A DNA stretch of 42,844 nt, from the NCBI GenBank assembly GCA_002729235.1, contig PBTY01000061.1:5738-48581 (forward strand), given 5' to 3'. The first letter of the stretch is position 1; every line of letters starts with the position of its first letter. This document shows, one piece after another, positions 8,317-28,015 of the stretch. The notes beneath the pieces are model-generated. The model was not told the origin of the DNA, did no database searches, and saw only the letters and a list, made by a program, of their open reading frames with translations. This DNA comes from Rickettsiales bacterium. GTDB taxonomy: Bacteria > Bacteroidota > Bacteroidia > Cytophagales > Cyclobacteriaceae. The position numbers and the translations under genes are program-made.

Positions 8317-11300
8317 TCACATCTCGATATTTCCAGAATTGGGTCTATATACTTCCAAAGGGCCACTATTTCTTCCGACGATAAACCCATTCTCAGTCGA
8401 AATTATTTGTTTGACCTCACCTTGAAACTGGAACCCTGACTTGGAATTATCTATATAAATCAAATCATCACCAACAACTTCCAACAGAGCACCATAAGAG
8501 CCATCTATTCGGGCTGTTTCTACTTCAAGGTTGTACTTATTGCCACCTAAAACTAAGAATCTCTTTCCTTCATATTCAAAAATAGAACAAGCATTTACAC
8601 TGGAACCTTGAACCTCATCAGGGAGAGGTTTGAAATCAAATTTCAAATCACCTTTATTAATTAGAATACCTGAATTAAAGGTCTTTGCTTCTTTTTTCAA
8701 AACAGACTTCAACTCTGACCCAGGAAAAATTTCGCTAAAGGTCTTTTCTGCGTACGATTTATAGGTAAGAAGTCTATCTTTTAAGTAATGCAATTCCTCC
8801 AGCAAATCTTCTCTACCTTTCACTGGATACTCTTTATTGCTTTCAAAATAACTTAATAAAGACTCCACATCACCATCACCATCTATGTCACCCCCATAAA
8901 TCTTCATCGGAGCTTGATATTTATAGTTCTTACCAAGATTACCCAATACAAAATCTTGCAGGCCATCATTATTGAAATCTACTGGATAGACACAATTCCA
9001 CCAACCAGACAAATTCTCTGTTCCGCTAATAGTCAGTTTTTTTATTTCGTTTGACTCGAATTGATAGAATTCAGGCTCCATCCACTCACCCACCACAACC
9101 AATGTGTTTTGTCCATTCATCTCAACCCAACCCAAATCTGTGACTAAACCCAAATTCAACTCACCAAAGTTTTCATTGATTTCTAATTGTCCATCTACAT
9201 TTTCCAATAGATAACTTGAGGATGAGTATGGATACGATCTTGGCTCAATATACCCACCAACGAATAAGTCTAAATCTCCATCAGAGTCATAGTCTAACGG
9301 TTGCACTGAAGATCCGCTGTAATTGTTACTAAACTTTATTGATTCGCTAAATACTCCACCTTCATTTAGATAAAGTCTATCAGCATAGTGACTGTCCCCG
9401 GCTGGAAATTCGTTACCTCCACTTACCACAAATAAATCAAGATCTCCATCATTATCTACATCAAGTGGTGTGGCATCCACATCTTCATAGCCCTTATCTC
9501 TTGCAAAACCGGACTGTTTAGATTTTATATAGGTACCGTCATCTTTTCCTAAGTACAATTCAGACTCTAATCCAGTGGCATTTCCAATAAAAACATCCAG
9601 ATTCCCATCTCCATTCGAATCAAATACAGTCAGGGCAGGACCCATTCGTGATATCCTATAAGGTAGTAGGAATTGATAAGAGTAATCATCAAATTCATTT
9701 TCTTTATGCTCAACTGCCAAAATTGACTTTTTGAACAGATTCATCTCAGAATTTGACTTCTTGAGAGACTTTAAAGATTCATCATCTTCTGCAACTATAT
9801 AATTTCCAGAATTAGGGTAATCAACCGAGAAATGACTTACCGCTCCCGATGGCCAATACACCTTCCCATCAATGGGGGATTTGATATCAGGAATAGCAAA
9901 AATTAAACTCGCCGGAACTGACGATTGAAAACCTCTGGTAAGAAAATTCTCCAATGTTTGAACAACTCCTCCATTCTCAATCACCACTTTTGCTCCAATA
10001 CCAAACTTGTTATCAATACCTTTGAGGTCAATTTGTAAAGATTTGCCTTTAACCGTATTTTCATACACCAAAGCCGTATGATCAATATTATTGACGATGA
10101 GGTCTAAATCTCCGTCACCATCCAAGTCACCATAGGCACTTCCATTAGAAAAACCATTAAAATCTAAACCCCACTTCTCACTTACATTCTCAAAAACCAG
10201 ACCTCCAGAGTTTTTAAACGCATAATTTCTTTTAGGTTCCTCAGGCAAAGCATTGATCATCTCTAATACACTAGTTCCCTCAAGATCATTGGATAAAGCA
10301 CGCTGATACAGCTGATTATTAAAGTCGTTATTGTTAACACTTCTTCTTAAACCATTAGCAATAAACAAATCCTTTGCCCCATCCAGATCAGCATCAAAAA
10401 AATCCACTGACCAACTCCAGTCTGTTTCTGCCACACCAGCCAACTGAGAAATTTGACTAAAAGCTCCAGATCCGGTGTTCAGTTGCAAAGAATTTTGCAT
10501 GTACTGATGATTGAAATCATATTCAACAGTTTTCCAAAACTCCGGAGCATTCATTGCTCCCATATTCGTTTTCTCGTGATAATGATTATCCGGCATCATG
10601 TCTAATTGAATTAGATCTATCAGACCATCATTATTAAAGTCAGCCATATCAGACCCCATCCCATAATTAGAAGTCTGCCGGAAATAGTCATTCAGTTTAT
10701 TACTGAAAGTTCCATCACCATTATTGATATAGAAATAGTCCGGTGTATTGAAGTCATTGGAAACGTACAAATCACTAAATCCATCATTGTTTATATCTGT
10801 CGCCAAAACATTTAAGGATAAGCCATAATTTAACACTCCAGATTCATTGGTAATTTCTGTGAAATAGTCTCCATCATTTCTATACAAGTGATCTGACTCA
10901 TCCATGGAAGGATTTTTTACCTTCATGTTCCAGAATTCGTTACTGCTATTAAACTTTGCTTCTGGATAGCTAGTAACGTACAGATCAAGATCTCCATCAT
11001 TTTCCAAATCAAAGAAAATCGACTGTACACTCATTCCATTATCATTCACCTTATACTCTTCTCCTAGTTCTTTAAATGTCCCGTCCGTATTATTTATAAA
11101 GAGTAAATTCTCTCTTGAGAATCGAGGATTGTTTCCTGTAATATCTTTTCCAGAAACACATAAATAAAAATCTAAGAAACCATCTCCATTAACATCACCA
11201 ACACTTACACCTGTAACCCAACGGTTTTTAGTTCTTAAACCGGCACGCCGTGTGATGTCCTCAAATTTGAACTGCCCCATATTCTTATAGAGCCTCGAGG

Positions 11301-11568
11301 TAACCATGTTGCCCGTAAGAAGCACATCATTTAAACCATCATTATCGATATCGAAAATAGCAACACCACCTCCGAAATACATATATGGATAACTAAAGTA
11401 ATTTAGGTATTCAGTCTCTTGAAGATTGTTAGCGAACTGAATCCCAGTAAGGTCAGGAGATTTAAGTTCAAATAATTGCCCAGGATCAGGGCTATTAGAT
11501 TCTTCTGATGCACATGCACTTAACATCAATAAAGGAAATACTATTAGAATTAATTTGGAGCCACTCAT
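8317..11568 (-). CDS. FG-GAP/VCBS repeat lipoprotein with ASPIC/UnbV domain (paralog 1)
   Basis: 1083 residues. It is a lipoprotein: lipobox LSAC at 16-19, then ASEES, whose acidic residues are compatible with surface export. About a dozen Ca-binding-type D-x-D/N-x-D-G motifs (e.g. DIDNDG near 73, DVNGDG near 125, DLDGDGDLD near 481) form at least two integrin-like beta-propellers. They are separated by an ASPIC/UnbV segment (~520-585, IGAKV...RGFQSS...WPSGAV). A full-length paralog lies at 18676-22143: both share GGGV near residue 66, the LAGV-x2-TDWSW motif, RGFQSSV and a (L)LP-x3-SRMGP segment opening the second propeller. It is divergent from the haloperoxidase-type gene, 84 bp away. Family function is unknown; binding of glycans or proteins is a guess from the fold. 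Confidence 0.85.
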   Translation of the reverse strand: MSGSKLILIVFPLLMLSACASEESNSPDPGQLFELKSPDLTGIQFANNLQETEYLNYFSYPYMYFGGGVAIFDIDNDGLNDVLLTGNMVTSRLYKNMGQFKFEDITRRAGLRTKNRWVTGVSVGDVNGDGFLDFYLCVSGKDITGNNPRFSRENLLFINNTDGTFKELGEEYKVNDNGMSVQSIFFDLENDGDLDLYVTSYPEAKFNSSNEFWNMKVKNPSMDESDHLYRNDGDYFTEITNESGVLNYGLSLNVLATDINNDGFSDLYVSNDFNTPDYFYINNGDGTFSNKLNDYFRQTSNYGMGSDMADFNNDGLIDLIQLDMMPDNHYHEKTNMGAMNAPEFWKTVEYDFNHQYMQNSLQLNTGSGAFSQISQLAGVAETDWSWSVDFFDADLDGAKDLFIANGLRRSVNNNDFNNQLYQRALSNDLEGTSVLEMINALPEEPKRNYAFKNSGGLVFENVSEKWGLDFNGFSNGSAYGDLDGDGDLDLIVNNIDHTALVYENTVKGKSLQIDLKGIDNKFGIGAKVVIENGGVVQTLENFLTRGFQSSVPASLIFAIPDIKSPIDGKVYWPSGAVSHFSVDYPNSGNYIVAEDDESLKSLKKSNSEMNLFKKSILAVEHKENEFDDYSYQFLLPYRISRMGPALTVFDSNGDGNLDVFIGNATGLESELYLGKDDGTYIKSKQSGFARDKGYEDVDATPLDVDNDGDLDLFVVSGGNEFPAGDSHYADRLYLNEGGVFSESIKFSNNYSGSSVQPLDYDSDGDLDLFVGGYIEPRSYPYSSSSYLLENVDGQLEINENFGELNLGLVTDLGWVEMNGQNTLVVVGEWMEPEFYQFESNEIKKLTISGTENLSGWWNCVYPVDFNNDGLQDFVLGNLGKNYKYQAPMKIYGGDIDGDGDVESLLSYFESNKEYPVKGREDLLEELHYLKDRLLTYKSYAEKTFSEIFPGSELKSVLKKEAKTFNSGILINKGDLKFDFKPLPDEVQGSSVNACSIFEYEGKRFLVLGGNKYNLEVETARIDGSYGALLEVVGDDLIYIDNSKSGFQFQGEVKQIISTENGFIVGRNSGPLEVYRPNSGNIEM

Positions 11569-11652
11569 GCTTAAATATATCCGTTAAACACATAAATATA
11601 ACGAACATCTGGTAGCCTGTGATAATTCTTCCTTGTTGGTTAATATTGTCGG

Positions 11653-12987
11653 ATGATGAGGTGTAGTGTCATAGGTTTTTTTGGGGGCTTATTATTACTC
11701 TTTGGGTGCAGTGAAAAAAGCAATCCCAATTACACTCCAAATATCAAAGAATGGAATGATGTCTTGACGAAAGTAATAATGGAGGATGTCTTCACTCCTC
11801 CTGTAAGTGCTCGTATTTATGCCTACTCAAATTTGGCTGCATTCGAGATTTTACGACAAGAACAAGATAGCATTGAGTCATTTGCCAAGGTTATTAGAGG
11901 GTTCCCTTCTATTGTTTCACCAAGCGATCCAATTGATTTCAAAATATCATCTTTAGTTGCCTATTGCACTGTGTCAGAATTCCTTGTGCTTGACAAAGCA
12001 CGCATGAATATCTCAGAGCACCATAAAATGACTGACTATTTTGAAGGTGAAGTGGAAAAACTGATTGAAGAAGGCTTTGATCAGGATATCATTAACTCTT
12101 CTATTAATTATGGTCAGGAGGTAGCCAAGGAAATAATAAAATGGACGAAATCCGATCACTATAAGCAACGAAGCTATCCGATATTTAAAGTGGTAGACAC
12201 ATTAGGAGGTTGGAAACCAACACCACCTTCTTTCTTACCTGCTGTAGAACCAAATTGGAATACCGTACGAACTTTTTTCATTGATTCGGCAGATCAGTTT
12301 AACATATCCAAATACAATACTCCTTTTGATATTGATCCAAACAGCACTTTTTACAAAGAAGCATATGCCGTATACAATAGTGTGAAGCAAGTCGATTCTA
12401 ACAGAGTAGCGATTGCTAAGTACTGGGATTGCAACCCGAACGTCGTTATTGGTTATTCTGGAAATATTAAACTGTGGAGCCAAAAAATATCTCCTGGAGG
12501 TCACTGGATTTCTATAGCTAGCCAAGCATGTGAGCAGTATAATCTCTCATTAACGGCCACATCGTTCATCGTCAGTTCCGTAGCCATGTCTCTACACGAT
12601 GCCTTTGTGTCATGCTGGGATATGAAGTATAAAACCAATCTTATTCGTCCAGAAACATACATTAGACAATACATTGACCCAGAATGGGTTCCTATTTTAG
12701 AAACGCCTGCTTTCCCCGAACATACTAGTGGACATAGTGTAGTATCAACGGCCGCTGCAACCATATTAACAAGTCTTATCGGAGATAATATGGAGTTCAC
12801 GGATGCTACAGAGGAATTCTTTGGGATGCCATCTAAAACCTTCCCTAGCTTCTATGCTGCATCAGAAGAGGCTGCAATTAGTCGTTTCTATGGAGGGATC
12901 CATTATTTGCCTGCTGCAGAAAAAGGGAAATCACAAGGCAAAGAATTAGGTAATTATGTAACAAAAAAAATCAGCTTACTCTATTAA
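11653..12987 (+). CDS. Vanadium-dependent haloperoxidase / PAP2-superfamily lipoprotein
   Basis: 444 residues, exported as a lipoprotein (LLFGC, Cys19). All residues that bind vanadate or phosphate in this superfamily are present: KX6RP as Lys325...Arg332-Pro333, Ser359-Gly360-His361 in FPEHTSGHS, and Arg411...His417 in SRFYGGIH. The K-to-R (7), R-to-H (6) and S-G-H spacings match the fungal chloroperoxidase pattern, and Phe354-Pro355 matches its FP pair. In the PAP2 third motif SRX5HX3D the final Asp is Ala421. The family includes haloperoxidases and acid phosphatases, and sequence alone does not decide between them. It is first in a four-gene operon with 10 bp to the TonB receptor. ATG at 11653 is chosen for its signal peptide. 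Confidence 0.88.
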   Translation: MMRCSVIGFFGGLLLLFGCSEKSNPNYTPNIKEWNDVLTKVIMEDVFTPPVSARIYAYSNLAAFEILRQEQDSIESFAKVIRGFPSIVSPSDPIDFKISSLVAYCTVSEFLVLDKARMNISEHHKMTDYFEGEVEKLIEEGFDQDIINSSINYGQEVAKEIIKWTKSDHYKQRSYPIFKVVDTLGGWKPTPPSFLPAVEPNWNTVRTFFIDSADQFNISKYNTPFDIDPNSTFYKEAYAVYNSVKQVDSNRVAIAKYWDCNPNVVIGYSGNIKLWSQKISPGGHWISIASQACEQYNLSLTATSFIVSSVAMSLHDAFVSCWDMKYKTNLIRPETYIRQYIDPEWVPILETPAFPEHTSGHSVVSTAAATILTSLIGDNMEFTDATEEFFGMPSKTFPSFYAASEEAAISRFYGGIHYLPAAEKGKSQGKELGNYVTKKISLLY

Positions 12988-12997
12988 TTAAAACCAT

Positions 12998-15673
12998 ATG
13001 ATCAAAACTCTAATCACTATATGTCTCACCACAGTCATATTGGTGAATGTATCAGCACAATCCAAGCCACTCAACGAAATACTCTCAGACTTATCAAAAC
13101 AAAATAGTATCAACATATTATATAATTCTGAAGAGGTAAATGATATCATCAGGGAAAACTCAAATGAACCAGCACTAGGCGATCAGTTAAGATCATTACT
13201 ATCTGGAACTGGTCTGGTTTTCCTTTATCAGGATGATAAGGATGTTTTCATACTTCCCGCCGAGCTTTTCAATAATTACTCAATCACCCTCCTTAATATA
13301 AATAGGACTCCTGATGAGTATGTAACAGACGATCTTTCTATATCGGATATTATCACCGCAGATGCAGTCTTCACCATATCTGGAGTAATTGCCGACTCTA
13401 AGACAAATGAGCCACTTATTGGCGCCTCAATTATTGTTAATAATGGTGATGAAGAAAAATATGCGATATCAGACGTAGAGGGAAAATACCAGCTTGAAGT
13501 CAATCCAGGAAGATATTCCTTTAAGGTATTGATGTCAGGGTTTCAACAAGAAGAATCTCAGCTGGCTGTTTTTACTGATTTGAATAAAAATGTTGCCATG
13601 TATGAGGAAACTATGTATTTGGATGAATTCACTATAACAGCGAATAAGTCCAACTCAGCATCCTCTACCGAAAGCAGCACCATGCAATTATCTGTAGAAA
13701 GTATTAAGAAGCTACCTCCTGCTTTTGGAGAAGTTGATGTGATCAAGTCAATCAGCTCATTACCAGGTGTCTCCAATGTCGGGGAGGGTACCTCTGGTTT
13801 TAACGTGCGAGGTGGCAATATTGATCAAAACCTAATCTTATTGGATGGAGCCCCAGTATACAACTCAGGACACTTATTTGGATTTTTCAGCATTTTTAAT
13901 CCTGATGCTCTTGATGGGTTCAAACTTTATAAGGGAGCTATACCATCATCTTTTGGTGGTAGAGCCTCTTCGGTTTTGACGATCTCTTTGAAGAATCCTG
14001 CAATGGAAGAGTTGAATTTTGGTGGAAGTGTTGGTATTCTCACTAGTAAGCTGCGGGTTGAAACTCCTATCAGTAAGAAACATGGGATTTCGTTCCTGGC
14101 TGCCGGAAGAATTGCATATCCGAATTTTGTCATGTCTCAATCCATAGAACAGACCATTAGTCAAAGTTCAGCCAGTTACAGTGACGTCACAGCAAAACTA
14201 AGTTATAAGCCATCCGATAAAGACTTTGCGTTATCATCTTCTCTCTATTTAAGCCAGGATGAATTCAGCTTTAGACCTGATACAGTATACGGTTGGGACA
14301 ACCAAATTGCAAACCTGGACTTTAGCAAATCTTTCGGAACTCATTTCTTCAATACACATATTCATTATTCCAATTACACAAATAAGATTACTGGTAACTA
14401 TACCAATAGTGAATACGATTACAATTCATCTGTTAACGATATTGGATTAAAGGCTGTATTGGCCAAGGATGATGAGCTGGGATTATCTTATGAGACCGGA
14501 TTAGAAGTAAAAAGGATCAAATTAAACCTGGGTGAGATTGAGCCATCCGGTGACCAAAGTAGCATCCTACCTTATGAAACGGGTGTGGAAAGGGGATTGG
14601 AAGGAGCAATCTTTGCTGAAGCTTCAAAACAAATCAATCAAAAACTCTCCTTAACAGCAGGATTAAGATACTCCATGTTTGCTCGACTAGGCGAGTCCTC
14701 AGAATACACCTACATGGAAGGGTTTAGTAAGGATCCGAGAAGAATTACCGACACCACATTTTATTCTTCAGGACAATTATACGGATTTAACTCAGGTTTA
14801 GAACCAAGGATTTCAGGCAAAATCACTTTGACACCTAAATCCTCATTTAAGTTCAGCTATAACCTGTTGAGACAATATTTACTTCTTGTCTCTAATACGG
14901 CAGCCCAGTCTCCTGTTGATATTTGGAAACTTTCTGGACCTAACCTTCAATCACAGCTCAACCATATTTGGAGTGTAGGTTACTATAGAGAAATTGACAA
15001 ACCAGACTTAAATGTCTCTGTTGAATTGTATTACAAGTTGCTAAAGAACAACATTGGCTATAAAGAAGGAGCACAACTTACTCTTAATAATAGTCTAGAA
15101 ACAGAATTAATAAATGGTGTTGGAAATTCCTATGGAATGGAATTCCTAATTAATAAGACAGAAGGTAAGAGCACTGGATGGATAAGCTACACTTATTCTA
15201 GATCATTCAACAAGCTTGATGGTCCCTACAGAACCGAGCGAATTAATAATGGTGAATTCTTCCCTTCCAACTTTGATAAACCTCACATCCTAAACTTCAT
15301 TTACAATTACGATTTTAACAGTCGCCTGAGTTCATCAGTTAATTTCGTTTATAATTCTGGAAGACCAATAACAGCACCGGAGTCCGCTTACTATTTCAAT
15401 GGCTCCATTATTGCGAATTATCAAGCTAGAAATCAGGAACGTGTTCCTGATTATCACCGATTGGATTTGTCCTTAACCTTGGAGAATAGGAAAAAAAGAA
15501 GTCGTGATTGGGAAACAAGTTGGACGTTTTCCGTCTACAACGTTTACGGTAGAAACAACCCATTCTCTGTTTATTTCTCTACTATAAGAGATGGCAGGTT
15601 GCCTCAAGCCTATAAATTATCAGTCTTAGGCTCCATTATTCCTGCTATCACATTCAACTTCGATTTAAAATAA
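12998..15673 (+). CDS. FecA-like TonB-dependent outer-membrane receptor with STN-like and carboxypeptidase-regulatory-like domains
   Basis: 891 residues. Signal peptide 1-20 (NVSA/QS). An STN-like region at ~23-90 (LNEILSDLSKQ...INILYNSEEV) precedes a CarboxypepD_reg-like beta-sandwich (~128-205, GASIIVNNGDEEKYAISDVEG). The plug (~225-330) has the hallmark GFNVRGGNIDQNLILLDGAP, followed by a beta-barrel ending in an aromatic strand (ITFNFDLK). It imports a ligand across the outer membrane using TonB energy. It is not a SusC-type protein, since there is no adjacent SusD. Instead a DUF4249 lipoprotein follows 6 bp downstream, a recurrent Bacteroidota pairing. An STN domain usually signals to a FecR/ECF-sigma pair, and none is in the window. 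Confidence 0.9.
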   Translation: MIKTLITICLTTVILVNVSAQSKPLNEILSDLSKQNSINILYNSEEVNDIIRENSNEPALGDQLRSLLSGTGLVFLYQDDKDVFILPAELFNNYSITLLNINRTPDEYVTDDLSISDIITADAVFTISGVIADSKTNEPLIGASIIVNNGDEEKYAISDVEGKYQLEVNPGRYSFKVLMSGFQQEESQLAVFTDLNKNVAMYEETMYLDEFTITANKSNSASSTESSTMQLSVESIKKLPPAFGEVDVIKSISSLPGVSNVGEGTSGFNVRGGNIDQNLILLDGAPVYNSGHLFGFFSIFNPDALDGFKLYKGAIPSSFGGRASSVLTISLKNPAMEELNFGGSVGILTSKLRVETPISKKHGISFLAAGRIAYPNFVMSQSIEQTISQSSASYSDVTAKLSYKPSDKDFALSSSLYLSQDEFSFRPDTVYGWDNQIANLDFSKSFGTHFFNTHIHYSNYTNKITGNYTNSEYDYNSSVNDIGLKAVLAKDDELGLSYETGLEVKRIKLNLGEIEPSGDQSSILPYETGVERGLEGAIFAEASKQINQKLSLTAGLRYSMFARLGESSEYTYMEGFSKDPRRITDTTFYSSGQLYGFNSGLEPRISGKITLTPKSSFKFSYNLLRQYLLLVSNTAAQSPVDIWKLSGPNLQSQLNHIWSVGYYREIDKPDLNVSVELYYKLLKNNIGYKEGAQLTLNNSLETELINGVGNSYGMEFLINKTEGKSTGWISYTYSRSFNKLDGPYRTERINNGEFFPSNFDKPHILNFIYNYDFNSRLSSSVNFVYNSGRPITAPESAYYFNGSIIANYQARNQERVPDYHRLDLSLTLENRKKRSRDWETSWTFSVYNVYGRNNPFSVYFSTIRDGRLPQAYKLSVLGSIIPAITFNFDLK

Positions 15674-15679
15674 CATCAC

Positions 15680-16672
15680 ATGAAAAAATTATTATATACG
15701 CTCGCACTTCTGGCAATTTGTTTTAGTTGCGTCGAGGTAATCGACTTGTCAACTCGTGATGGAGAAAAAACCTTAGTAGTTGATGGGATGTTCACAACTA
15801 AATTAAAACAACATCAAGTTAAACTATCATATACCACTGTTTACCCTTCCAATCCCAATGCTCTTCCAGAGGAACAATTGATCTCTGGTGCACAGGTTCA
15901 AGTCATAAGTGAAGCAGGAGAAACATTTGATTTTTATGAAAGTGCAATAGGTGTTTATTCAACTATTGATTCTGTTGCTGGTATTGTGGGTGGAACTTAC
16001 CAATTGAGACTATTTGTGGATGATCAAGAATACCTATCAGATCCACAGACCATTACTCCTGTCACTGCTCCTGACAGTATTTATTATGAGTACTTAGAAG
16101 ATGAAGATAATATAGCTGTATACATTGACTCAAAAGATCCAGGCGACTCAAGAAACTTCTATAGATGGACATGGACGAGCAATTACATAGTTATCACCAA
16201 CTTTGGGGATGAGTTAGATTGTTGTGCCAGATGTTTTATTTCTAAAGTTAGCAATGACATTGTACTTCATGAAGATACCTACACCAATGGTCAACCAATT
16301 ATCAAGAAGGAAATTGCTAAAATACCAGTAGACATCAATGGAGATTATCTGATATTCATAAATCAGCATTCAATATCAATAGAAACATACGACTACTACG
16401 ACCTCTTGAATAGACAAATTTCTAGTACAGGTAACCTTTTCGACCCACCTCCTTCAAGGCTTATTGGCAATATATCCGCAGTAAATAGCAATGAGAATGT
16501 CCTGGGATTCTTTATGGCATCTGATGAGAAGACGATTTTCGGTCAGATTAAAAGATCTCCTTATTTTACGGGATTAGGCAAAGTATCAAGATACGGAGAC
16601 TGCAGATTGTTAACTAACTCTGACACCTTGACTCCCCCCTTTTGGAACACTAAAGTATTACCTATTTACTAA
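15680..16672 (+). CDS. DUF4249-family lipoprotein, partner of the TonB receptor
   Basis: 330 residues. Lipoprotein signal with CFSC (Cys17) followed by VEVIDL, the typical start of DUF4249 proteins. The N-terminal half is a beta-rich, Ig/transthyretin-like region (LVVDGMFTTK near residue 33, GAQVQVISEAGETFDFYES, GGTYQLRLFVDDQEYLS), and the rest has the family's WTWTSNY-like core and a CCARC cluster near residue 180. DUF4249 genes regularly follow FecA-like TonB receptors in Bacteroidota, suggesting an outer-membrane accessory or surface lid, but the function is not established. It is third in the operon, with 6 bp and 11 bp gaps on either side. Confidence 0.82.
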   Translation: MKKLLYTLALLAICFSCVEVIDLSTRDGEKTLVVDGMFTTKLKQHQVKLSYTTVYPSNPNALPEEQLISGAQVQVISEAGETFDFYESAIGVYSTIDSVAGIVGGTYQLRLFVDDQEYLSDPQTITPVTAPDSIYYEYLEDEDNIAVYIDSKDPGDSRNFYRWTWTSNYIVITNFGDELDCCARCFISKVSNDIVLHEDTYTNGQPIIKKEIAKIPVDINGDYLIFINQHSISIETYDYYDLLNRQISSTGNLFDPPPSRLIGNISAVNSNENVLGFFMASDEKTIFGQIKRSPYFTGLGKVSRYGDCRLLTNSDTLTPPFWNTKVLPIY

Positions 16673-16683
16673 TAGAAATTTTT

Positions 16684-18228
16684 ATGAAGTACTGGATATT
16701 TCTTACAATTCTCTTCTGCACTCAAAGTGTGTTCAGCCAACGTTTCTTAGTTAAACTTAAACAGAAGGATGTTTTCATAGCTAATGAAGATATTTCGTTC
16801 CAGGCATTCCTTACTGAATCATATCCTTATTCTCCTATTAACCAGGAAGAAATCATTAAAGCCGAGATCAAGGATCAGAATGGAAAGTTGCTCATCGAAA
16901 ATCTATTCTATTTAAAAAACGGTTATCTAGAAAATAGCTTATCTATTCCGGAGAAATTTAAAAGTGGCACCTATAAGTTAACGCTCAGTCTTTTGTCCAA
17001 CCCTGCCATGTCTAACAGCTTTGAATTACCGTTAATCGATTTTTCTGATCTCAGTGAGACCTACTTTGAGGTTGTTCAATTGAATGTAGGTTCACAATCC
17101 AAATGTTTGAGCCGAACATACATTGATGACAATAGGATTGCTATAAATACAGCGGATTTAGAAAATCAAGTTGCCACCATCAAAATCCAGAATGATCAAT
17201 TAGAGTTGTTATTTCAGAAATCGCTGCTCATTTCTGATTCGATCACCTATTTTGAAACATCCACCGAATTGGAGAATCAAAGTTTAATTACTATTGAATT
17301 GTACAACAGTACTCAGAATCTAATTCATCGTGAAAAGCAATTCATTGAGGTTCCGAAAAATCTGGATGTTTTTACTAAGTTAACATACCAAAACAGATTG
17401 GAATTTCTAAAAGAGTTAGAATACTCAGGTGTAGTTTATGACAATTGTATTCCTACATGGAGTCAAGAAGCTACTGAAGAAACCAAGCCTTTCCGAATCC
17501 AAGGTGAACTAGTTGATGTTGAAAATCCAGAAAATTATTTCATTTCATTCTTTTCGGAGCCAGCAATCATTAACTACAGTCGCGTTACCGAAGATGGTTT
17601 GTTTGAGATTGATTCCTTCAATGTACTAGACAACTCCAAACTTTCAATTAACCTAATTGAAAGATCAACATTTCAGAAGATTGATAACTTTAACTATACT
17701 CTTCTCTACAAACCTTTTGTAATTGAAGAGGAAAATTATGGATTCAATCCAAAACCACTTCCTATTGAGATTAAAAAGGACATACTGTCATTGAAAGAGA
17801 CCATTGCCGAAACTTACTTTGGTTCTTCTAATGTAGACAAGGCAATTGTAGAAACTCAATTAGTTCCAGATGAAGAATATGATCCTTCAGAGTACCCCTC
17901 ATATGAAAATATGGCAGTAACAATTAAAGAATTAGTTGGTAAGAAAAAGATGAGAAAACAGAAAGGGGTTTACTCGATTTATCTTCTTAATCGATTTAAC
18001 AACATGTTTTTTAATCGATCACCATTGATTATAGTAGATGACATGGTAGGCGTCTCCTTGGAAGAGCTTTGGACAATAAACCCTGCAACAGTCACAGGGA
18101 TTGAAGTATTCCATAACTCGGTATCCAATATAAAGACCTTTGGAGAGCTTGCAACTTATGGTGTGATCAAGGTGAACACTAACGGCAACAAATTCAATCA
18201 ATCAATTACTATTGACGGTGTGGATTGA
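16684..18228 (+). CDS. Secreted protein with macroglobulin-like N-terminus and TonB-plug-like C-terminus
   Basis: 514 residues, last gene of the operon. Signal peptide 1-18 (SVFS/QRF). Residues ~20-115 look like an MG2-type beta-domain (KQKDVFIANEDISFQAFLTE, then SGTYKLTLSL). Residues ~420-510 resemble a TonB plug without a barrel: SPLIIVDDMVGVSLEEL, then NPATVTGIEVFHNSVS and TYGVIKVNTNG match the plug pattern of VDG, INP-x-DIESIEVLK and YG-x-GVI. A barrel is absent and the protein simply ends after the plug-like region. Similar MG-plus-plug architectures occur in Bacteroidota near TonB receptors. A role in assisting or modulating the neighbouring receptor is inference. A bidirectional terminator follows. 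Confidence 0.72.
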   Translation: MKYWIFLTILFCTQSVFSQRFLVKLKQKDVFIANEDISFQAFLTESYPYSPINQEEIIKAEIKDQNGKLLIENLFYLKNGYLENSLSIPEKFKSGTYKLTLSLLSNPAMSNSFELPLIDFSDLSETYFEVVQLNVGSQSKCLSRTYIDDNRIAINTADLENQVATIKIQNDQLELLFQKSLLISDSITYFETSTELENQSLITIELYNSTQNLIHREKQFIEVPKNLDVFTKLTYQNRLEFLKELEYSGVVYDNCIPTWSQEATEETKPFRIQGELVDVENPENYFISFFSEPAIINYSRVTEDGLFEIDSFNVLDNSKLSINLIERSTFQKIDNFNYTLLYKPFVIEEENYGFNPKPLPIEIKKDILSLKETIAETYFGSSNVDKAIVETQLVPDEEYDPSEYPSYENMAVTIKELVGKKKMRKQKGVYSIYLLNRFNNMFFNRSPLIIVDDMVGVSLEELWTINPATVTGIEVFHNSVSNIKTFGELATYGVIKVNTNGNKFNQSITIDGVD

Positions 18229-18254
18229 TTACGACGATGAGACCATATAAGTAA

Positions 18255-18286
18255 AAAAAAGCTGTGTTTTTCAACACAGCTTTTTT
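18255..18286. terminator. Bidirectional terminator between the haloperoxidase operon and the minus-strand lipoprotein genes
   Basis: An 8-bp GC-containing stem (18261-18268 GCTGTGTT with 18273-18280 AACACAGC, 4-base loop) is flanked by an A run at 18253-18260 and a T run at 18281-18286. It can therefore stop transcription from both directions between the convergent operons. Confidence 0.9.
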
Positions 18287-18293
18287 ATTGTAA

Positions 18294-18707
18294 CTAATTC
18301 TTCGTGCCCCTAAATTCCTCTCCAGTGTCGTAAATACTAAAGCCTAAGATAGCAGGTGTAACTGCAACATCTGTCGCTAGAGACACTCCTGAGCTAATGT
18401 CAGACGTTATAATCGATCCTAAATTGACCAATAAACCTGTTTCAAAAGGTGAAAAAATATCTGAATTATTGACTGCTTCAACTTTAATCCTATCGTTGGC
18501 TAGTCTAGATATTAACACAGTAACATCATAAGTTGTGTCTGTCTCGTCAATCACATAGTATCCATCATAACTTCCCTCAACTAACAATGCAATATTCTCC
18601 CCTTCTTCTTCCTTACAGCTAATAAATGAATATGCAATTACGAATATTGCAAATATCATAAACAAGTGATTCCTCTTACTTGAAACTAAGCTCTCTGACT
18701 TTCCCAT
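18294..18707 (-). CDS. Small hypothetical lipoprotein
   Basis: 137 residues from the longest start; I do not recognise the family. A hydrophobic segment (FMIFAIFVIAYSFISC) ends in a Cys followed by KEEEGE, typical of a Bacteroidota lipoprotein with an acidic surface-export-like stretch. The rest is a predicted small beta-domain (SYDGYYVIDETDTTYDVTVLISR...), of the kind seen in short lipocalin-like or DUF-type lipoproteins. The long start overlaps the upstream gene by 32 bp. An alternative ATG at 18659 would remove the overlap but leaves an N-region with no positive charge, so I keep 18707 with reservation. It is last in the minus-strand run after the ASPIC/UnbV paralog 2 and ends at the shared terminator. 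Confidence 0.62.
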   Translation of the reverse strand: MGKSESLVSSKRNHLFMIFAIFVIAYSFISCKEEEGENIALLVEGSYDGYYVIDETDTTYDVTVLISRLANDRIKVEAVNNSDIFSPFETGLLVNLGSIITSDISSGVSLATDVAVTPAILGFSIYDTGEEFRGTKN

Positions 18708-21700
18708 TATTATCTACTATTTCAACTTTAATTACTCCTGATGGAACCATAATTGTCGGTTCAGATTGAGATAAATAACCTCCATTTCGAACTATCCCTT
18801 TAGTAATTTGTCCTTGATCATAAATTAATTTGTATTCAATATCGTTTGATTCAAATTTCAAAAGATTTCCAGATCTGGCATTTTCAAAGGCCAATAATTT
18901 ATCACTATTTTGAGCAGCTAAAAACACTTCTTTATCTGCTATGGTCACTTTAACCAAACTTTTTCCATCTCCTTTTACTACAAAATTAGTCAATCCGTTG
19001 GGAACATTTCGGAATGTCCCATCCCCATTTCCCAGAGCGACAAACCCAGAGCCAGCATCCATATAACCTCCTATTACATCAGAAGTATATTCATTACCAA
19101 TGGCAATTAAATCCAAATTTGAGTCATCATCTATATAAGTCGCCATCATCCCATAGATCGGCGACAATTGTAGTTGTGAATTGAGAGGTTTTAAGGTGTA
19201 ACGCCCTTCCTCGTTTCTAAGAATAGAATTAGAGAATGTATAACTACTCAAATGATAAACACCCTTTAGCTCCTCTTGAGTAAAATATTCATCAAAAGTT
19301 GCGTTCGCAAATTTCTCATAATTAGGAAATTTCTTTCTCATCATTTTCAATTGTTCCACAAGAACGTCTAAAGACCATTTAGAGTATCTCTTACCCTGAA
19401 TGTATTGTGTAATAATAGGATCTATTTTCCCATTTCCATCAAAATCCTTTGCAAACACTTCTACGGGTTCAGTTTTGCTAGGATGATACTGGTTATTTTC
19501 GCCGAGATTTCCGAGGACATAGTCAATATCCCCATCATTATCAAAATCCCCTGCACTAATAGAGTTCCACCAACCATTTGAATATTCATTAATGTAATTG
19601 GAGCTGACATCCTCGAAGGCCCCTTTATTGTTTTTAACAAAAGTTATCGGCATCCATTCTCCCACGAGAATTAGATCTGACCAACCATCCTCATCAAAAT
19701 CAGTCCATATTGCATCTGTAACGAGACCGTTTCTATGAAAAACTTCTCCTTTTTCATTACCAAACGTAGTAAATGTATTGTCACCGTTATTTTCTAAAAT
19801 ATAACTAGTAGATGGGTAAGGATAAAAACCTGGCGCCAATCGACCACCTACGAATAAATCAATATCACCATCCTTATCAAAATCGAATGGTCTAATAACA
19901 CTTCCTGACTGATTAATATCTGGTAAAGACCCTTCTGCTAATTCGAAATTACCATTACCGTCATTTATATATAATCTATCCTGATAGTATGGGTCTTCAC
20001 GTGCTACATCATTACCTCCACTGACTACATATAAATCGAGATCTCCATCGTTATCACTATCAAACAACGAAACACCCATATCTTCTTTGAAATAATCATC
20101 TTGAAGAATTTCCTCTTCACTGAATGTCGTAGATTTACTTTGTCTTAAAATCCTGATTGATTCTCCAGCAGCACCTCCTATAAGAACATCACTATCCCCG
20201 TCACCATCAATATCTCCAACTGACATACCAGGTCCCATTCTAGAAAACATATGAGGCAATAATGGATCACTTTTAAAATCTATCTTATTTAATTCTTTAT
20301 GTTGATAATTGATATCTAGAGCTTCATTGAGCTGACTAAACAACTTAGGTCTCTCTGGAGAAATGTATTGATTCAGAACCTCCCCTTCAAATGTTAATTC
20401 AGAATTAAATGGAGGATTAATTACTTTTTCATACATCATATCAGGCCAAATCACACATACTGAATCCACAATATTTTGATCGCCTAATCCAAAAATTATT
20501 TCATCCGTTACAGATGATTGAAATCCCCTATATGGATTTACTCTTCGATATTGCACTACTCCATCACTATACAATAATACCTTAGCGCCAATATTGATAT
20601 AGTTTCTTTTTAGCTTCACTTTTAGATAGTTATTATAATCGGAGGCTTTGCCTTCATATAAAAAGGCTTTTTGACCAATATTACTAACTACCAAATCCAT
20701 GTCTCCATCATTGTCTAAATCTGCGTATGCAGCACCATTAGAATAACTTTCAGGTGTACTTGCCCATATATCTCGTTTATCGTCAAAAGTTAAATCACCA
20801 GTATTTTCATAGAAAAAGTTCTTCAACTTAGCACCTCCTAAATTGCTCAATGCTGTTATTAAATTTTGTTTGGCTTCAGGAGTCCTGAGCATCTCTTGTT
20901 TCATTCGATATACTATAAAATCTCTATCAGTTATATCCCTTTTGAACCCATTAGAAATAAACAAATCTTGAAGTCCATCAAGATTGATGTCGATGAATAA
21001 TGGAGCCCAACTCCAATCGGTAGCATAAACCCCTGCTAATTGCCCCACTTCACTATAACCATACTGACCACCCATTTGAAGGTTATTTCTCATGAATTGT
21101 TCATTGTAACCCGCGTTTAACGTAGTATAAAAGAGTTCAAGATTAAGCGGGCCAATTAATTTTTGTCGGCGATATTGATCCTCAGGTAGCATATCTAAAA
21201 CCATTACATCAGCAAGACCGTCATTATTAAAATCTCCAAAATCATGGCCCATTGAAAAATTGCTGGTGTGTTTGAAGTAATCCTTTGCTGACTCCTTGAA
21301 CGTTCCATTCTGTTGGTTGATGTAGATATAGTCGTCAAAATAATAGTCATTAGTAACCGTGACATCCATCCATCCATCGTTATTAATATCTTCAATACCA
21401 AGACCTAAACTATACCCTTCATATAGTATTCCTGCTTTTTTACTGATATCAAAGAACTTACCATCAATATTTTCATATAGTCGATCATTACTTACAGATG
21501 CCCCTGAAGAATCAACCGGAGATATTCTTTTATCACCAAAGGAGTTGTGATGATTGATAACAAATAAATCCAAATCATTGTCTTTGTCGAAATCAAAAAA
21601 AGCAGCGTGCGTGCTATAGTCCAGATCGGTTAATCCACGTTCGATTGACTCATCAACAAATGTTCCATCCTGTTGATTGATGTATAACCTGTTTCGACGT

Positions 21701-22143
21701 AGGTTATCTGGCACTAAGCCAGAGTAACACACAAATAGATCATCATAGCCATCATTATTAATATCTACTACGGCAACTCCAGTAGCCCATCCAGGACCTT
21801 CAATACCAGCCGAATTAGATACATCTTTGAATTTTAACTCTCCCTGATTGATATACAAAGCATTATTTTGTTGATTACCTGTAAAAAAAATATCCTGAAG
21901 ACCATCATTATTAAAGTCACCGATACCAACACCACCACCATTGTAACAGTATTCGTAATCAATGACATTCACTGTGTCGTTTTCCATTATTTCATTGGAA
22001 AACATAATCCCTGAGCTATCAGATGAAATTAATTTTAACACCTCTGAAGAATTGGTCGACTCTATTGCGTTCTGTTCACAACCGATTAAGATTGATCCGA
22101 TTAGAGTAAAAAATGAACCGATGTTATAAGTGTAAAATCGCAT
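18676..22143 (-). CDS. FG-GAP/VCBS repeat lipoprotein with ASPIC/UnbV domain (paralog 2)
   Basis: 1155 residues. Lipobox LIGC at 19-22, then EQNAIES. About thirteen Ca-binding-type motifs (DFNNDGLQD, DINNDGYDD, DLDNDGDMD, DSDNDGDLD, DFDGNGKID and others) build two propeller regions around an ASPIC/UnbV segment (IGAKVLLYSDGVVQYRRVNP, RGFQSSV, WPDMMY). Colinear along its length with the 1083-residue protein at 8317-11568. Shared blocks include GGGVGIGDFNNDG, MGHDFGDFNNDG, QLAGVYATDWSW and LLPHMFSRMGP. It lies downstream of the SusC-SusD-lipoprotein genes but behind a terminator, and overlaps the small lipoprotein gene at its 3' end. Surface exposure is likely; the ligand is unknown. Confidence 0.85.
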   Translation of the reverse strand: MRFYTYNIGSFFTLIGSILIGCEQNAIESTNSSEVLKLISSDSSGIMFSNEIMENDTVNVIDYEYCYNGGGVGIGDFNNDGLQDIFFTGNQQNNALYINQGELKFKDVSNSAGIEGPGWATGVAVVDINNDGYDDLFVCYSGLVPDNLRRNRLYINQQDGTFVDESIERGLTDLDYSTHAAFFDFDKDNDLDLFVINHHNSFGDKRISPVDSSGASVSNDRLYENIDGKFFDISKKAGILYEGYSLGLGIEDINNDGWMDVTVTNDYYFDDYIYINQQNGTFKESAKDYFKHTSNFSMGHDFGDFNNDGLADVMVLDMLPEDQYRRQKLIGPLNLELFYTTLNAGYNEQFMRNNLQMGGQYGYSEVGQLAGVYATDWSWAPLFIDINLDGLQDLFISNGFKRDITDRDFIVYRMKQEMLRTPEAKQNLITALSNLGGAKLKNFFYENTGDLTFDDKRDIWASTPESYSNGAAYADLDNDGDMDLVVSNIGQKAFLYEGKASDYNNYLKVKLKRNYINIGAKVLLYSDGVVQYRRVNPYRGFQSSVTDEIIFGLGDQNIVDSVCVIWPDMMYEKVINPPFNSELTFEGEVLNQYISPERPKLFSQLNEALDINYQHKELNKIDFKSDPLLPHMFSRMGPGMSVGDIDGDGDSDVLIGGAAGESIRILRQSKSTTFSEEEILQDDYFKEDMGVSLFDSDNDGDLDLYVVSGGNDVAREDPYYQDRLYINDGNGNFELAEGSLPDINQSGSVIRPFDFDKDGDIDLFVGGRLAPGFYPYPSTSYILENNGDNTFTTFGNEKGEVFHRNGLVTDAIWTDFDEDGWSDLILVGEWMPITFVKNNKGAFEDVSSNYINEYSNGWWNSISAGDFDNDGDIDYVLGNLGENNQYHPSKTEPVEVFAKDFDGNGKIDPIITQYIQGKRYSKWSLDVLVEQLKMMRKKFPNYEKFANATFDEYFTQEELKGVYHLSSYTFSNSILRNEEGRYTLKPLNSQLQLSPIYGMMATYIDDDSNLDLIAIGNEYTSDVIGGYMDAGSGFVALGNGDGTFRNVPNGLTNFVVKGDGKSLVKVTIADKEVFLAAQNSDKLLAFENARSGNLLKFESNDIEYKLIYDQGQITKGIVRNGGYLSQSEPTIMVPSGVIKVEIVDNNGKVRELSFK

Positions 22144-22163: not shown

Positions 22164-22196
22164 AAAAAAAGTACCGACTTTCATCGGTACTTTTTT
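22164..22196. terminator. Strong hairpin terminator between the SusCD-lipoprotein genes and UnbV paralog 2
   Basis: GTACCGA (22171-22177) pairs with TCGGTAC (22184-22190) around a 6-base loop, with seven A before (22164-22170) and six T after (22191-22196). On the minus strand this gives a GC-containing stem followed by a T run, ending transcripts that come from 27.6 kb. The stem ends 28 bases before the paralog 2 start, leaving little room for an independent promoter. Confidence 0.88.
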
Positions 22197-22214: not shown

Positions 22215-23030
22215 TTAAAGCGCTTCTAAAGTCGCTACATAACCTCCACCAAAGTCGATGGTAACAGAAGTTCCCGCGGTGATAGAGAAACCAGCTTCAG
22301 AATTAGCAAGACCAGCAGCATCCCAGAAAGGATCAATGTCTCTAATACTAATTGTTGCTGCATCCAATAATGCCCAAGGACTCCATACTTCACCTTCAAC
22401 TGATACTGGTGACTGGTAAGAATCCGGCTCATCACATACAGACGCGCCTTCAGCTCTTATCAATTCTCCAGTTTTAAGGAAAGTGAATACATCATCAGTA
22501 CCACATGCTGCCTGGAATCCCCAGATATTACCGTCACCAGGATAATCATATCCTGTAACCACCCAGCTGTTAGCTATTAGATCGATGAATTCAGTCAAGA
22601 CTCCATCAACTGTAGTGCTCACAACAGTAGGTCCTGAAGACCAATATAGGTAAGGTGTATTTACCGTACTAGACCAGTTTCTCAAGTTACCAGCAGCAAC
22701 ACTGAAGTAAACTTGTCCACAACAAGTCGCTTCACCTAGATCTGAAGCAGAATACCCCATATCAGTGGCTGTTACACTTACCATACCGCTTGCATCTGTA
22801 GTTGCTGTTGCAACTACATTAGCTTCGTTTATATAATCATCAGCAGATAAGAAGAAACTAACTACCGCTCCAGAAACTGGAGAACCAGCAGCGTCAAATA
22901 CTTCTATATCTAATCTTGGATCGCCAACAGATGTTTCACGAGCCTGGTTTACTTTGTCCGCATCTACACACGAGAAAGCAACCGCCCCAAACACTAGCAA
23001 ACTAAGAAGTTGTTTTATGTTCATTTTCAT
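22215..23030 (-). CDS. Lipoprotein with Ig/transthyretin-like N-domain and lipocalin-like C-domain
   Basis: 271 residues; no named family recognised. Lipoprotein signal FSC (Cys21), then VDADK. Residues ~38-115 look like a Big_1/transthyretin-like sandwich (LDIEVFDAAGSPVSGAVVSF, then ATTDASGMVSVTATDMGY), followed by CCGQVYFSV. Residues ~150-271 start NSWVVTGYDYPGDGNIWGF and contain CGTDDVFTFLKTGELI and a later Cys in SVCDEP, a layout like short lipocalin-type lipoproteins. It follows SusD by 22 bp and ends just before a strong terminator. It is probably the third component of the SusCD surface complex, which often includes an extra substrate-binding lipoprotein (inference). Confidence 0.72.
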   Translation of the reverse strand: MKMNIKQLLSLLVFGAVAFSCVDADKVNQARETSVGDPRLDIEVFDAAGSPVSGAVVSFFLSADDYINEANVVATATTDASGMVSVTATDMGYSASDLGEATCCGQVYFSVAAGNLRNWSSTVNTPYLYWSSGPTVVSTTVDGVLTEFIDLIANSWVVTGYDYPGDGNIWGFQAACGTDDVFTFLKTGELIRAEGASVCDEPDSYQSPVSVEGEVWSPWALLDAATISIRDIDPFWDAAGLANSEAGFSITAGTSVTIDFGGGYVATLEAL

Positions 23031-23052: not shown

Positions 23053-24537
23053 TTAATTACTTGCTTCAAGACCTCCAAATGAGTAGATCTCAACACCTAA
23101 AAGGGTCAATTCACCACCAGGAACAGGAAGCTGAGTGAAAGCACCCTCTCTTAACCAGCCATCCCAATGTCTACCTTCAGCCAATTCACGGCCTCCCCAG
23201 GTGTTAAGCAATTCAATTATTCTTTCGTACTTAACAGCATCTAATAAAACAGCATCAGTTTCAGATCCAGTCAAAGCAGAAAGTCCACCTCTACCTACTC
23301 TTGTAAGGTTGATTAAAGAAGCTGCCTCTGTTTTACTGCCACCTGATCTGATTAATGCTTCAGCTCTCATTAGATCGCTTTCAGCTTTTTTGAATTTAGG
23401 CATTGGTACACCTGCAAAATCATATGCATTCGGAATATATCTGTTATGCACATAATTGGAGAATCTATACGTTCCTCTATCGATTGGGAAAAAGATAGAA
23501 GATCTGTAAAGAAAATCAGTAGTCATTCTATTGTCGCTTGAATTCAATGGAGGTAGACTCGTTCCATCTGCATTCGGGAATTCAGATGGATAAGAAGGGT
23601 CTATCATGTTCAATACCTTCTGATCCACTCTAGCCCAAGTGTTCGCAGCATTACCATTGGCAAGTGCTCCTCCACCTACTCCCTTCACATCATCAAACCA
23701 TAAGTTGTTATCTCCTATAGGAGCAAAGTCATAACTAAGAGCATTATTAGTAAGGGAAACAACTTTAGCCCAGTCTACATCAGCCACCTCACCAGGAGTA
23801 CGAGGATGATAAGTCAATGCCATCGCTGCAAGGTGATTTGCCAATTCTCCCAATTGATCACTTGTCAATGCTAGGCCATTGATATATGACGCAGGCATCG
23901 TAAAAGTGTTGGAAAAGGATGTTGACGCACATGCTTCTAGTTTAGCTACTGCAAAATCTCTCATCTCCGCCGCAGTGGAGAATGTTTCAGCTCCCAAAGT
24001 ACCTAGATCAGTCTCAGAGTCCGCAATGAAGCCTCTATCGTATAAGATTGAAAGCTGTGCATGACCTGCTCCAATTAAGAATTGAGAAACAGCAGTCAAC
24101 ATTGCAGTCTGATCAACACCATTAACAGTTACCGGCAAATTCTCCGGGTTTGATAAGAATCTTTCGATATCAATACCACTTGAAATTGCAGAATAGTAGT
24201 TGTTATATGCCGTACTGATAGCAGCTCCGTCATTCGACGTAAGTGAGTTATCAATAGCAATTGGCGGCTGCCAGGAGAAATTACGAATTCCAAAGTTACC
24301 CCAAGAACAGGTTAACATGTCCGCATTACATGCCCATGCTACCCCTGTATTTACAGTAGACTGAGCCTGCCACCAGGACACAAATGCTCCACCAGGAATG
24401 TTTGTTAAATCTTCAGGACTAGCCAATACATCATCAAAGTCTGGCTCGTTGAAGTTTTCAACTTCCAAGTCCGCACACGCGTTGATAGTAACGGTGAGTG
24501 CGAGTAATATGATTAAATTAATTTTATTCATTTTCAT
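23053..24537 (-). CDS. SusD/RagB-family nutrient-binding outer-membrane lipoprotein
   Basis: 494 residues. Lipobox INAC (Cys21) followed by ADLEVENFNEPDFDDVLASP, a typical SusD opening. The middle and end have the family's helical TPR-like features: FKKAESDLMRAEALIRSGG, ASLINLTRVGRGG and KYERIIELLNTWGGRELAEGRHWDGWLREGAF. SusD proteins cap the SusC barrel on the cell surface and bind the substrate. The gene lies 18 bp downstream of susC and 22 bp upstream of the small lipoprotein gene, so the three are one operon. The sequence gives no reliable clue to the substrate: no glycoside hydrolase, sulfatase or peptidase of an obvious utilisation locus is adjacent. Confidence 0.92.
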   Translation of the reverse strand: MKMNKINLIILLALTVTINACADLEVENFNEPDFDDVLASPEDLTNIPGGAFVSWWQAQSTVNTGVAWACNADMLTCSWGNFGIRNFSWQPPIAIDNSLTSNDGAAISTAYNNYYSAISSGIDIERFLSNPENLPVTVNGVDQTAMLTAVSQFLIGAGHAQLSILYDRGFIADSETDLGTLGAETFSTAAEMRDFAVAKLEACASTSFSNTFTMPASYINGLALTSDQLGELANHLAAMALTYHPRTPGEVADVDWAKVVSLTNNALSYDFAPIGDNNLWFDDVKGVGGGALANGNAANTWARVDQKVLNMIDPSYPSEFPNADGTSLPPLNSSDNRMTTDFLYRSSIFFPIDRGTYRFSNYVHNRYIPNAYDFAGVPMPKFKKAESDLMRAEALIRSGGSKTEAASLINLTRVGRGGLSALTGSETDAVLLDAVKYERIIELLNTWGGRELAEGRHWDGWLREGAFTQLPVPGGELTLLGVEIYSFGGLEASN

Positions 24538-27576: not shown

Positions 27577-28015
27577 ATTATACCATTTTAAATTGTACAT
27601 TATGTTTCAACTTAAAGTTATAACAATTATATCGTATTCAACAAGTCGTCTAAATAATATGAAAGAAATAATATACCATAGTTTTTATTACCATTTTCCT
27701 ATTTAACAAGATATTCATCTGAATTATTCATAAATAACCAACTTCGAATAGAAGAAACAGTACCATTCATCCCCATTCATAAAATATTCTTTTGTTAACT
27801 ATTCATTAAAATAGTTTCATTTTCTTGCCTATTTATTTAGAATCAATACACAAAAGGCATTATTCATCTTTTAAACTTAGCACAAACACTATTAACGGTA
27901 GTACGTTCCTTTGCTTTCTAATACTCCTTTCTTAAAAATCTACAGTTTTCTTTCGGAAATCTCAAATAGATCCATTTGAGATTAATAGGCACTCTTGAAC
28001 CTAAGAGGAAAAGGC
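27577..28015 (-). other. 439-bp gene-free region upstream of susC
   Basis: Very AT-rich, with no plausible coding frame. It must hold the promoter and leader of the SusC operon, but I find no exact TANNTTTG box. The nearest is TATAATTG on the minus strand at 27624-27631, one mismatch. A perfect 10-bp inverted repeat lies at 27958-27983. No tRNA or riboswitch-like structure was recognised. Confidence 0.6.
27958..27983. repeat. Perfect 10-bp inverted repeat (hairpin) between the OmpA-family gene and susC
   Basis: AATCTCAAAT (27958-27967) pairs with ATTTGAGATT (27974-27983) around a 6-base loop. No T run follows on either strand, so it is not a standard intrinsic terminator. It may be a weak terminator for the OmpA-family gene ending at 28016, an mRNA-stabilising hairpin, or a regulator-binding palindrome. 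Confidence 0.6.

Follow-up and report, generated by a model that had tools for sequence, protein, structure and literature searches.

What does it mean that two large lipoproteins of the UnbV/ASPIC kind, both encoded on the minus strand, stand on either side of a plus-strand operon which begins with a homologue of vanadium haloperoxidases? The arrangement lies in contig PBTY01000061.1 of assembly GCA_002729235.1, named as a Rickettsiales bacterium and placed by GTDB in the Cyclobacteriaceae (Bacteroidota), of which we analysed positions 5,738 to 48,581; this whole stretch of 42,844 nucleotides is called the window, and positions are counted from its first letter. We call the two lipoproteins A (1083 residues) and B (1155 residues), their genes and relatives UnbV-VCBS or simply VCBS genes, and the vanadium-haloperoxidase homologue VHPO (Table 1). 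A first-pass annotation had described both full-length lipoproteins around the operon 11653-18228, together with its haloperoxidase-type, TonB and DUF4249 genes, and this description holds: the open reading frames are in place, and the contents are borne out by a PAP2 match, by homology to the solved enzyme 4CIT, by a TonB plug domain and by PF14054. The same annotation had supposed that all these genes form one surface module and that the layout may stem from a duplication. We found the recurrent VCBS-haloperoxidase set more interesting than the flanking pattern, the window being an odd, rearranged case of it. The answer that we regard as probable is that the locus is a rearranged version of a Bacteroidota gene set in which one to three VCBS genes are followed by a VHPO-type lipoprotein, in many cases behind SusC and SusD, so that Sus-type import, propellers like those of CRTAC1 (cartilage acidic protein 1) and a surface haloperoxidase are brought together.

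A recurrent gene set in Bacteroidota

A search through 296 Bacteroidota genomes turned up VHPO homologues in 63, the genome of the window included, and 60 of these 63 also carry UnbV. There were 128 matches, two of them in the window's own genome; these counts are lower bounds, at most five candidates having been scored per genome. From the 126 matches in other genomes we took 98 with about 20 kb around each, leaving out the 28 weakest, mostly partial ones, and labelled the neighbouring genes with profiles. One locus (L066) has no VHPO open reading frame and was excluded, though a UnbV match lies within 2 kb upstream, and the main counts do not include the second VHPO locus of the window's own genome (L056). 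In this first set of 97 loci, a VCBS gene lies within about 10 kb of VHPO in 62, against 2.0 expected in the sampled bases from 270 UnbV matches in 255 Mb. It belongs to the co-directional run upstream of VHPO in 54 loci and stands immediately upstream in 47. The co-occurrence count which the first-pass annotation had asked for is thus clearly positive as far as UnbV-VCBS genes are concerned. The linkage differs between VHPO subfamilies (58 of 75 high-scoring loci against 4 of 22 low-scoring ones, Fisher p 8e-7), and it is specific to the closer subfamily. The high-scoring loci represent 36 genera, of which 27 show it, and 12 families, of which 11 do, as counted with a slightly wider VCBS label and with the genome's own second locus among the rest.

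An alignment of 29 VHPO members gave at least 583 matches, and the 80 best, in named genomes, make up a second set; a single-sequence search of genome contigs with the window VHPO gave no match. VCBS genes are present anywhere in the stretch in 54 of these 80 loci, in the upstream run in 47 and next to VHPO in 42, or in 52, 45 and 40 of 78 when two loci repeating the first set are removed. Both sets together, without repeats, give 114, 99 and 87 of 175 loci. The 87 adjacent pairs have a median gap of 10 bp; 66 of them are less than 50 bp apart and 28 overlap. Where two VCBS genes precede VHPO (for instance in L057 and L062), the genes on the SusD side and those on the VHPO side fall into separate clades, so that this pairing is old. 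As judged from gene order, the combination of UnbV-VCBS with VHPO recurs in Bacteroidota as a gene set, far above chance and in an operon-like order. We found no description of this set in the literature, an earlier mention in papers on the Zobellia enzyme or on iodine uptake by Arenibacter being possible; one published genome note names a haloperoxidase and SusD without linking them.

Where SusC and SusD are both visible, the typical order is SusC-SusD-VCBS(1-3)-VHPO, as in Flavobacterium taihuense, and the same order is found with extra genes in between in Runella aurantiaca and Pedobacter ginsenosidimutans. We also clustered the co-directional neighbours of 101 VCBS-VHPO runs (two loci counted twice), annotating each cluster from one member. 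An MFS transporter recurs in 12 loci, a trehalase-containing protein in 11, GH65-like, FGGY-kinase, ROK-kinase and SSF proteins in 7 each, and alpha-amylase, fucosidase and PfkB proteins in 4 each; these neighbours point to sugars in part of the runs. A protein of 440-457 residues with weak copper-monooxygenase and cytochrome matches lies upstream of VCBS in seven loci (L053, L058, L061, L289, L305, L324, L325), together with a redoxin in four; it is a possible second oxidative part.

Some related arrangements were noted in passing. The window's own genome holds, at 81-85 kb of contig C21 (L140, 7161-11184), a 613-residue UnbV/FG-GAP protein overlapping tail to tail with a 730-residue VCPO/PAP2-type protein; both belong to other subfamilies than those of the window and both carry a sorting tail of the type IX secretion system. 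At 134-145 kb of its contig C17 (L142) there are three VCBS genes in a row with a 198-residue gene between, and no VHPO was found in that stretch; in Algoriphagus (L262, L263, L299) this order continues into VHPO. Seventeen loci (e.g. L285, 2601-3185) hold a family of 187-210 residues without Pfam match, mostly between two VCBS genes. In 24 loci (e.g. L294, 11399-12298) a family of 295-306 residues, with only a GyrI-like match below threshold, lies close to VHPO, on its downstream side in 19 cases and on its upstream side in 5.

Origin of the layout in the window

Trees of the VCBS genes, A and B among them, and of VHPO were built with FastTree, with local support values; in the VCBS tree of 132 rows a few genes, such as the A-type gene of genome G364, are entered twice. 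In this tree A falls in a clade of 9 rows and B in a clade of 46, both with support 100. In a tree of 22 rows under a mixture model they are again apart. Had a single VCBS gene been duplicated in tandem and an operon then been inserted between the copies, this would account for two proteins which are colinear, 36% identical and on the same strand; yet the two clades stand apart, and a grouping of A with B is rejected by the approximately unbiased test (p-AU 2.07e-6) under the model used, in which both are long branches, so that this origin is hardly credible. By these trees A and B belong to two separate clades and are not products of a recent or local duplication. The other half of the earlier proposal, an operon inserted between once-adjacent VCBS genes, remains plausible, since an uninterrupted arrangement exists: genome G364 has the order SusC-SusD-(B-clade VCBS)-(A-clade VCBS) with 2 bp between the VCBS genes and no operon between them. 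In four loci of the A clade (L237, L238, L239, L241) SusD is directly upstream.

The window VHPO belongs to a clade of 19 rows with support 100, which makes 16 loci, the window included, once three repeats are removed. Nine of them have enough context (L243, L244, L246-L251, L264), and in all nine two or three VCBS genes lie directly upstream of VHPO, with SusC and/or SusD ahead of them in seven. As for the other six, L257 lacks a VCBS gene in its 10 kb, a VCBS piece lies upstream in L212 and downstream instead in L211, L226 has a weak and patchy match, and L208 and L213 have none in the little sequence available. One canonical member of the clade (L244, genome G422) is from the window's own genus. 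Since the kin of VHPO and of B are found in the canonical kind of operon, the two have apparently been separated in the window. In SusC and SusD, however, the window does not closely resemble the loci nearest to it by VHPO, and among the sampled loci its SusD matches only that of L119 (37%); the locus therefore looks like a mosaic rather than a simple inversion of one ancestral operon, and a rearranged mosaic is what we take it to be on these comparisons. In the window VHPO is turned round and leads a TonB-DUF4249-MG2 operon, which has a VCBS gene on either side, the two being of different lineage. A and VHPO are back to back with their start codons 84 bp apart, and the reversal would have split the usual co-transcription into two divergent units sharing this short region, which presumably holds both promoters.

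Could the layout be a mere assembly join of unrelated pieces? The succession of A, operon and B was not seen in the sampled loci, and the contamination of the genome is listed as 4.64%. Against this, the G+C content stays between 0.35 and 0.41 throughout, the spacing within the plus-strand operon is tight, and no long near-identical repeat was found in 8-28 kb; we consider such a join very improbable. No mobile element was found at the joints, where the repeats are either short or part of FG-GAP coding sequence.

As a lead, we mention that L119 (genome G100), from another family, has SusC-SusD converging on VCBS-VHPO as in the window. Its SusC is 39% and its SusD 37% identical to those of the window, while its VHPO (32%) and VCBS (29%) are distant.

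The two lipoproteins

The colinearity of A and B is as the first-pass annotation had described it: BLASTP aligns them with 36% identity (567 bits) over 1095 columns, and the blocks GGGV, LAGV-x2-TDWSW, IGAKV, RGFQSS and SRMGP are present in both translations. A has eight FG-GAP_3 stretches and B seven, and UnbV_ASPIC is above the Pfam cut-off in both. Both begin with a lipobox-like sequence by a loose pattern (MLSAC in A, ILIGC in B), and they contain 11 and 12 DxDxDG-type loops respectively, which we take to be calcium-binding.

The AlphaFold model of B has a mean predicted local distance difference test score (pLDDT) of 89.3. Its top fold match in the PDB, searched for B only, is CRTAC1 (9etn_A, E 9.6e-27), which is also the sole PDB sequence match of B at E 0.001. 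B is thus predicted to have a CRTAC1-like beta-propeller fold, and the two proteins share FG-GAP repeats and a UnbV/ASPIC domain. B is however about twice as long, the TM-score being 0.70 by the length of CRTAC1 and 0.35 by that of B. The window's own genome has nine UnbV matches in total, so that two in one neighbourhood are not remarkable in themselves. We found in the literature no function assigned to UnbV/ASPIC proteins. A first look at genomes G381, G311 and G420 gave up to 68 candidate places of UnbV-VCBS genes per genome, most of them unscored, as befits a very large surface family.

The haloperoxidase homologue

In Pfam the window VHPO matches PAP2 alone. With phmmer, residues 22-443 of its 444 align with the vanadium haloperoxidase 4CIT (2.9e-101). 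The vanadate site of 4CIT/4USZ, whose motif we take to be K, R, SGH, R and H, is kept as K325, R332, P333, S359, G360, H361, R411 and H417; K325, R332, H361, R411 and H417 are conserved in all 76 high-scoring relatives. Unlike the solved enzyme, the window VHPO has extra residues in the loop near 263-271, where the alignment is uncertain, and N271 in place of a histidine. This histidine is found in 76 of the 76 high-scoring relatives; it is a trait of the subfamily and is not known to define the family of vanadium-dependent haloperoxidases. In the residue comparison the window VHPO itself was sorted into the low-scoring set. Two branches of the VHPO tree were flagged as long, and its own is one of them; the protein is fast-evolving. 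Because of N271 and of this long branch, its activity may have changed.

The TonB-DUF4249 part of the operon

DUF4249 is near VHPO in 4 of the 175 other loci (L078, L253, L260, L269), as counted with a profile of 30 sequences, a profile of one sequence being too weak; its density, 89 matches in 14 genomes, would predict 3.7. As a partner in the module DUF4249 was therefore rejected, and on this gene the proposed co-occurrence count contradicts the first-pass annotation. The idea of one surface module survives in part: the VCBS-VHPO association is above chance and SusC/SusD accompany it in some of the loci, but the DUF4249/TonB portion has to be left out.

Within the family, 110 of the 118 genomes, counting the window's own, carry DUF4249 homologues, and a homologous TonB receptor was directly upstream of DUF4249 in 10 of 11 loci checked. 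The TonB-DUF4249 pair is thus a common unit of its own. The window fits the order of this pair at 12998-16672; it differs in that the pair is headed by a haloperoxidase gene, next to which the pair is found elsewhere only at the level of chance. The MG2-like gene has matches in 4 of the 118 genomes of the family, again with the window's own.

Possible function of the set

The composition of the set suggests that some compound is oxidised at the cell surface during its import. SusC and SusD would be the gate. The propellers would be calcium-stabilised surface lipoproteins which bind or present the substrate, a binding or scaffold role suggested by their position and fold. At the cell surface, the haloperoxidase would oxidise a halide with hydrogen peroxide and thereby modify the bound substrate; alternatively, it may itself be the capture route for the oxidised halogen. 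A bolder form of this proposal is a phylum-wide oxidative uptake, in which a TonB gate is associated with a dedicated vanadium haloperoxidase and with calcium-binding CRTAC1-like propellers holding the substrate or the oxidised halogen during halogenation or oxidation, before import, the enzyme of the window having moved to a second gate (TonB-DUF4249) with a change of specificity. This we regard as tentative and rather doubtful.

A comparison with the Sus-type polysaccharide utilisation loci is natural. The window has SusC and SusD beside surface-type lipoproteins, and some related VCBS-VHPO runs contain glycosidases and sugar transporters. It differs by an oxidising enzyme, by the lack of any glycosidase found, and by UnbV-VCBS genes at the position which surface binding proteins occupy in other Sus loci. 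As no carbohydrate-active enzyme was found among the 11 proteins of 4790-27600 (10 examined by Pfam, SusC by NCBIfam only), we did not file the window as such a locus.

This absence is one of several points which weigh against the gene set as we understand it. The sampled loci are not independent, several coming from the same genus, and the second set is biased, being a list of best matches to an alignment drawn largely from VCBS-linked members. In 35 of the 97 loci of the first set there is no VCBS gene in the stretch, so that VHPO must have other contexts as well. The runs include a visible SusC or SusD gene in 26 of 97 loci of the first set, 12 of 80 of the second and 37 of 175 together; as many stretches end inside VCBS genes, these are lower bounds and not a demonstration. 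In six loci of family f24 (L095, L096, L101, L112-L114) the VCBS-VHPO pair is there but the upstream sequence showed no Sus gene, and some neighbours in these six are LptF/G-, FtsX- and PaaA-like. To this must be added, for the window itself, the distance of its SusC and SusD from those of the VHPO relatives, N271 and the long branch of its enzyme.

Two more specific functions have to be weighed. The set could serve the capture of iodine: the haloperoxidase would turn iodide into hypoiodous acid with hydrogen peroxide, and the calcium-binding propellers and a TonB gate would take up the oxidised iodine. The nearest solved relative, 4CIT/4USZ, is the vanadium iodoperoxidase of Zobellia galactanivorans (PMC5064120). 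Iodine uptake by Arenibacter C-21 needs glucose, oxygen and calcium, and continues without glucose when a system generating hydrogen peroxide or oxidising iodide is given (PMC5064120); in Zobellia, vIPO3 is reported to be upregulated when the alga A. nodosum rather than alginate is the substrate (PMC9296495). Also in favour are the order VCBS-VCBS-VHPO in Arenibacter palladensis (L294) and the many DxDxDG-type loops of A and B. However, the VCBS-VHPO order is also found in P. ginsenosidimutans (L325), R. aurantiaca (L324) and F. taihuense (L308), which presumably are not marine, and we found in the literature no genetic link of VCBS or SusCD to iodine uptake. In view of these carriers and of the lack of H271, a role in iodine alone does not fit the window well, and we think the capture of iodine unlikely.

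The second possibility is that the PAP2-type protein is a phosphatase and that the set imports glycerol phosphates or sugars in phosphorylated form. A site which holds vanadate can also accept phosphate; Pfam finds nothing other than PAP2 in the window enzyme, and sugar kinases, FGGY proteins (glycerol-kinase type), MIP channels, trehalase, GH65 and alpha-amylase recur in VCBS-VHPO runs. The match to a solved vanadium haloperoxidase over nearly the full length counts against this, and we find the phosphatase quite unlikely. With oxidation coupled to import as the preferred reading, the recurrent place of UnbV/ASPIC proteins beside a haloperoxidase, often behind a Sus gate, offers a testable function for a surface family which is very large in some Bacteroidota, and the VCBS-VHPO runs give the bacterial vanadium haloperoxidases a transport context. 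The genes of the set are also candidates for a part in the iodine uptake of Arenibacter, which depends on calcium and peroxide (PMC5064120).

Other features of the window

The coordinates are collected in Table 1. SusC and SusD are adjacent and lie beyond B, SusD being two genes past it. The 137-residue reading frame which overlaps the 3' end of B has no Pfam match. Terminator-like hairpins number 13 in the window against 8.8 expected from shuffles, and the one at 18255-18286, between convergent units, may serve both directions. A promoter pattern of the Bacteroidota type occurs 29 times in the window against 44.6 expected, which is not above chance, and sigma-70-type sites are below chance (46 against 58.7).

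Table 1. Coordinates of the features around the two lipoproteins, in window positions.
Feature	Position	Strand	Basis
UnbV/FG-GAP lipoprotein A, 1083 residues	8317..11568	-	Pfam FG-GAP_3 3.1e-60, UnbV_ASPIC 2.6e-9
Divergent intergenic region between A and the VHPO operon, 84 bp	11569..11652		sequence read
VHPO, 444 residues, lipoprotein-like start	11653..12987	+	phmmer to 4CIT; PAP2
TonB-dependent receptor, plug and CarboxypepD_reg domains	12998..15673	+	Pfam
DUF4249 lipoprotein	15680..16672	+	PF14054 9.9e-37
MG2-like protein	16684..18228	+	PF01835 1.2e-4, 22.8 bits, below the Pfam cut-off of 32.8
Terminator-like hairpin between convergent units, 14-pair stem, A and T runs	18255..18286	predicted on -	hairpin scan and sequence
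137-residue open reading frame, lipoprotein-like start, overlapping the 3' end of B	18294..18707	-	list of open reading frames; start pattern
UnbV/FG-GAP lipoprotein B, 1155 residues	18676..22143	-	Pfam FG-GAP_3 5.7e-69, UnbV_ASPIC 1.2e-18
Terminator-like hairpin between the 22215 gene and B	22165..22196	-	hairpin scan
271-residue protein, lipoprotein-like start, weak Big_1-like stretch	22215..23030	-	PF02369 2.4e-5, below cut-off
SusD-like lipoprotein	23053..24537	-	PF07980 4.3e-5, just above cut-off
SusC/RagA TonB-linked outer membrane protein	24556..27600	-	TIGR04056 7.5e-165

Adjoining A, on the minus strand at 4790-8221, there is a protein with a tail of the type IX secretion system, PKD domains and a metalloprotease-like match just under the cut-off.

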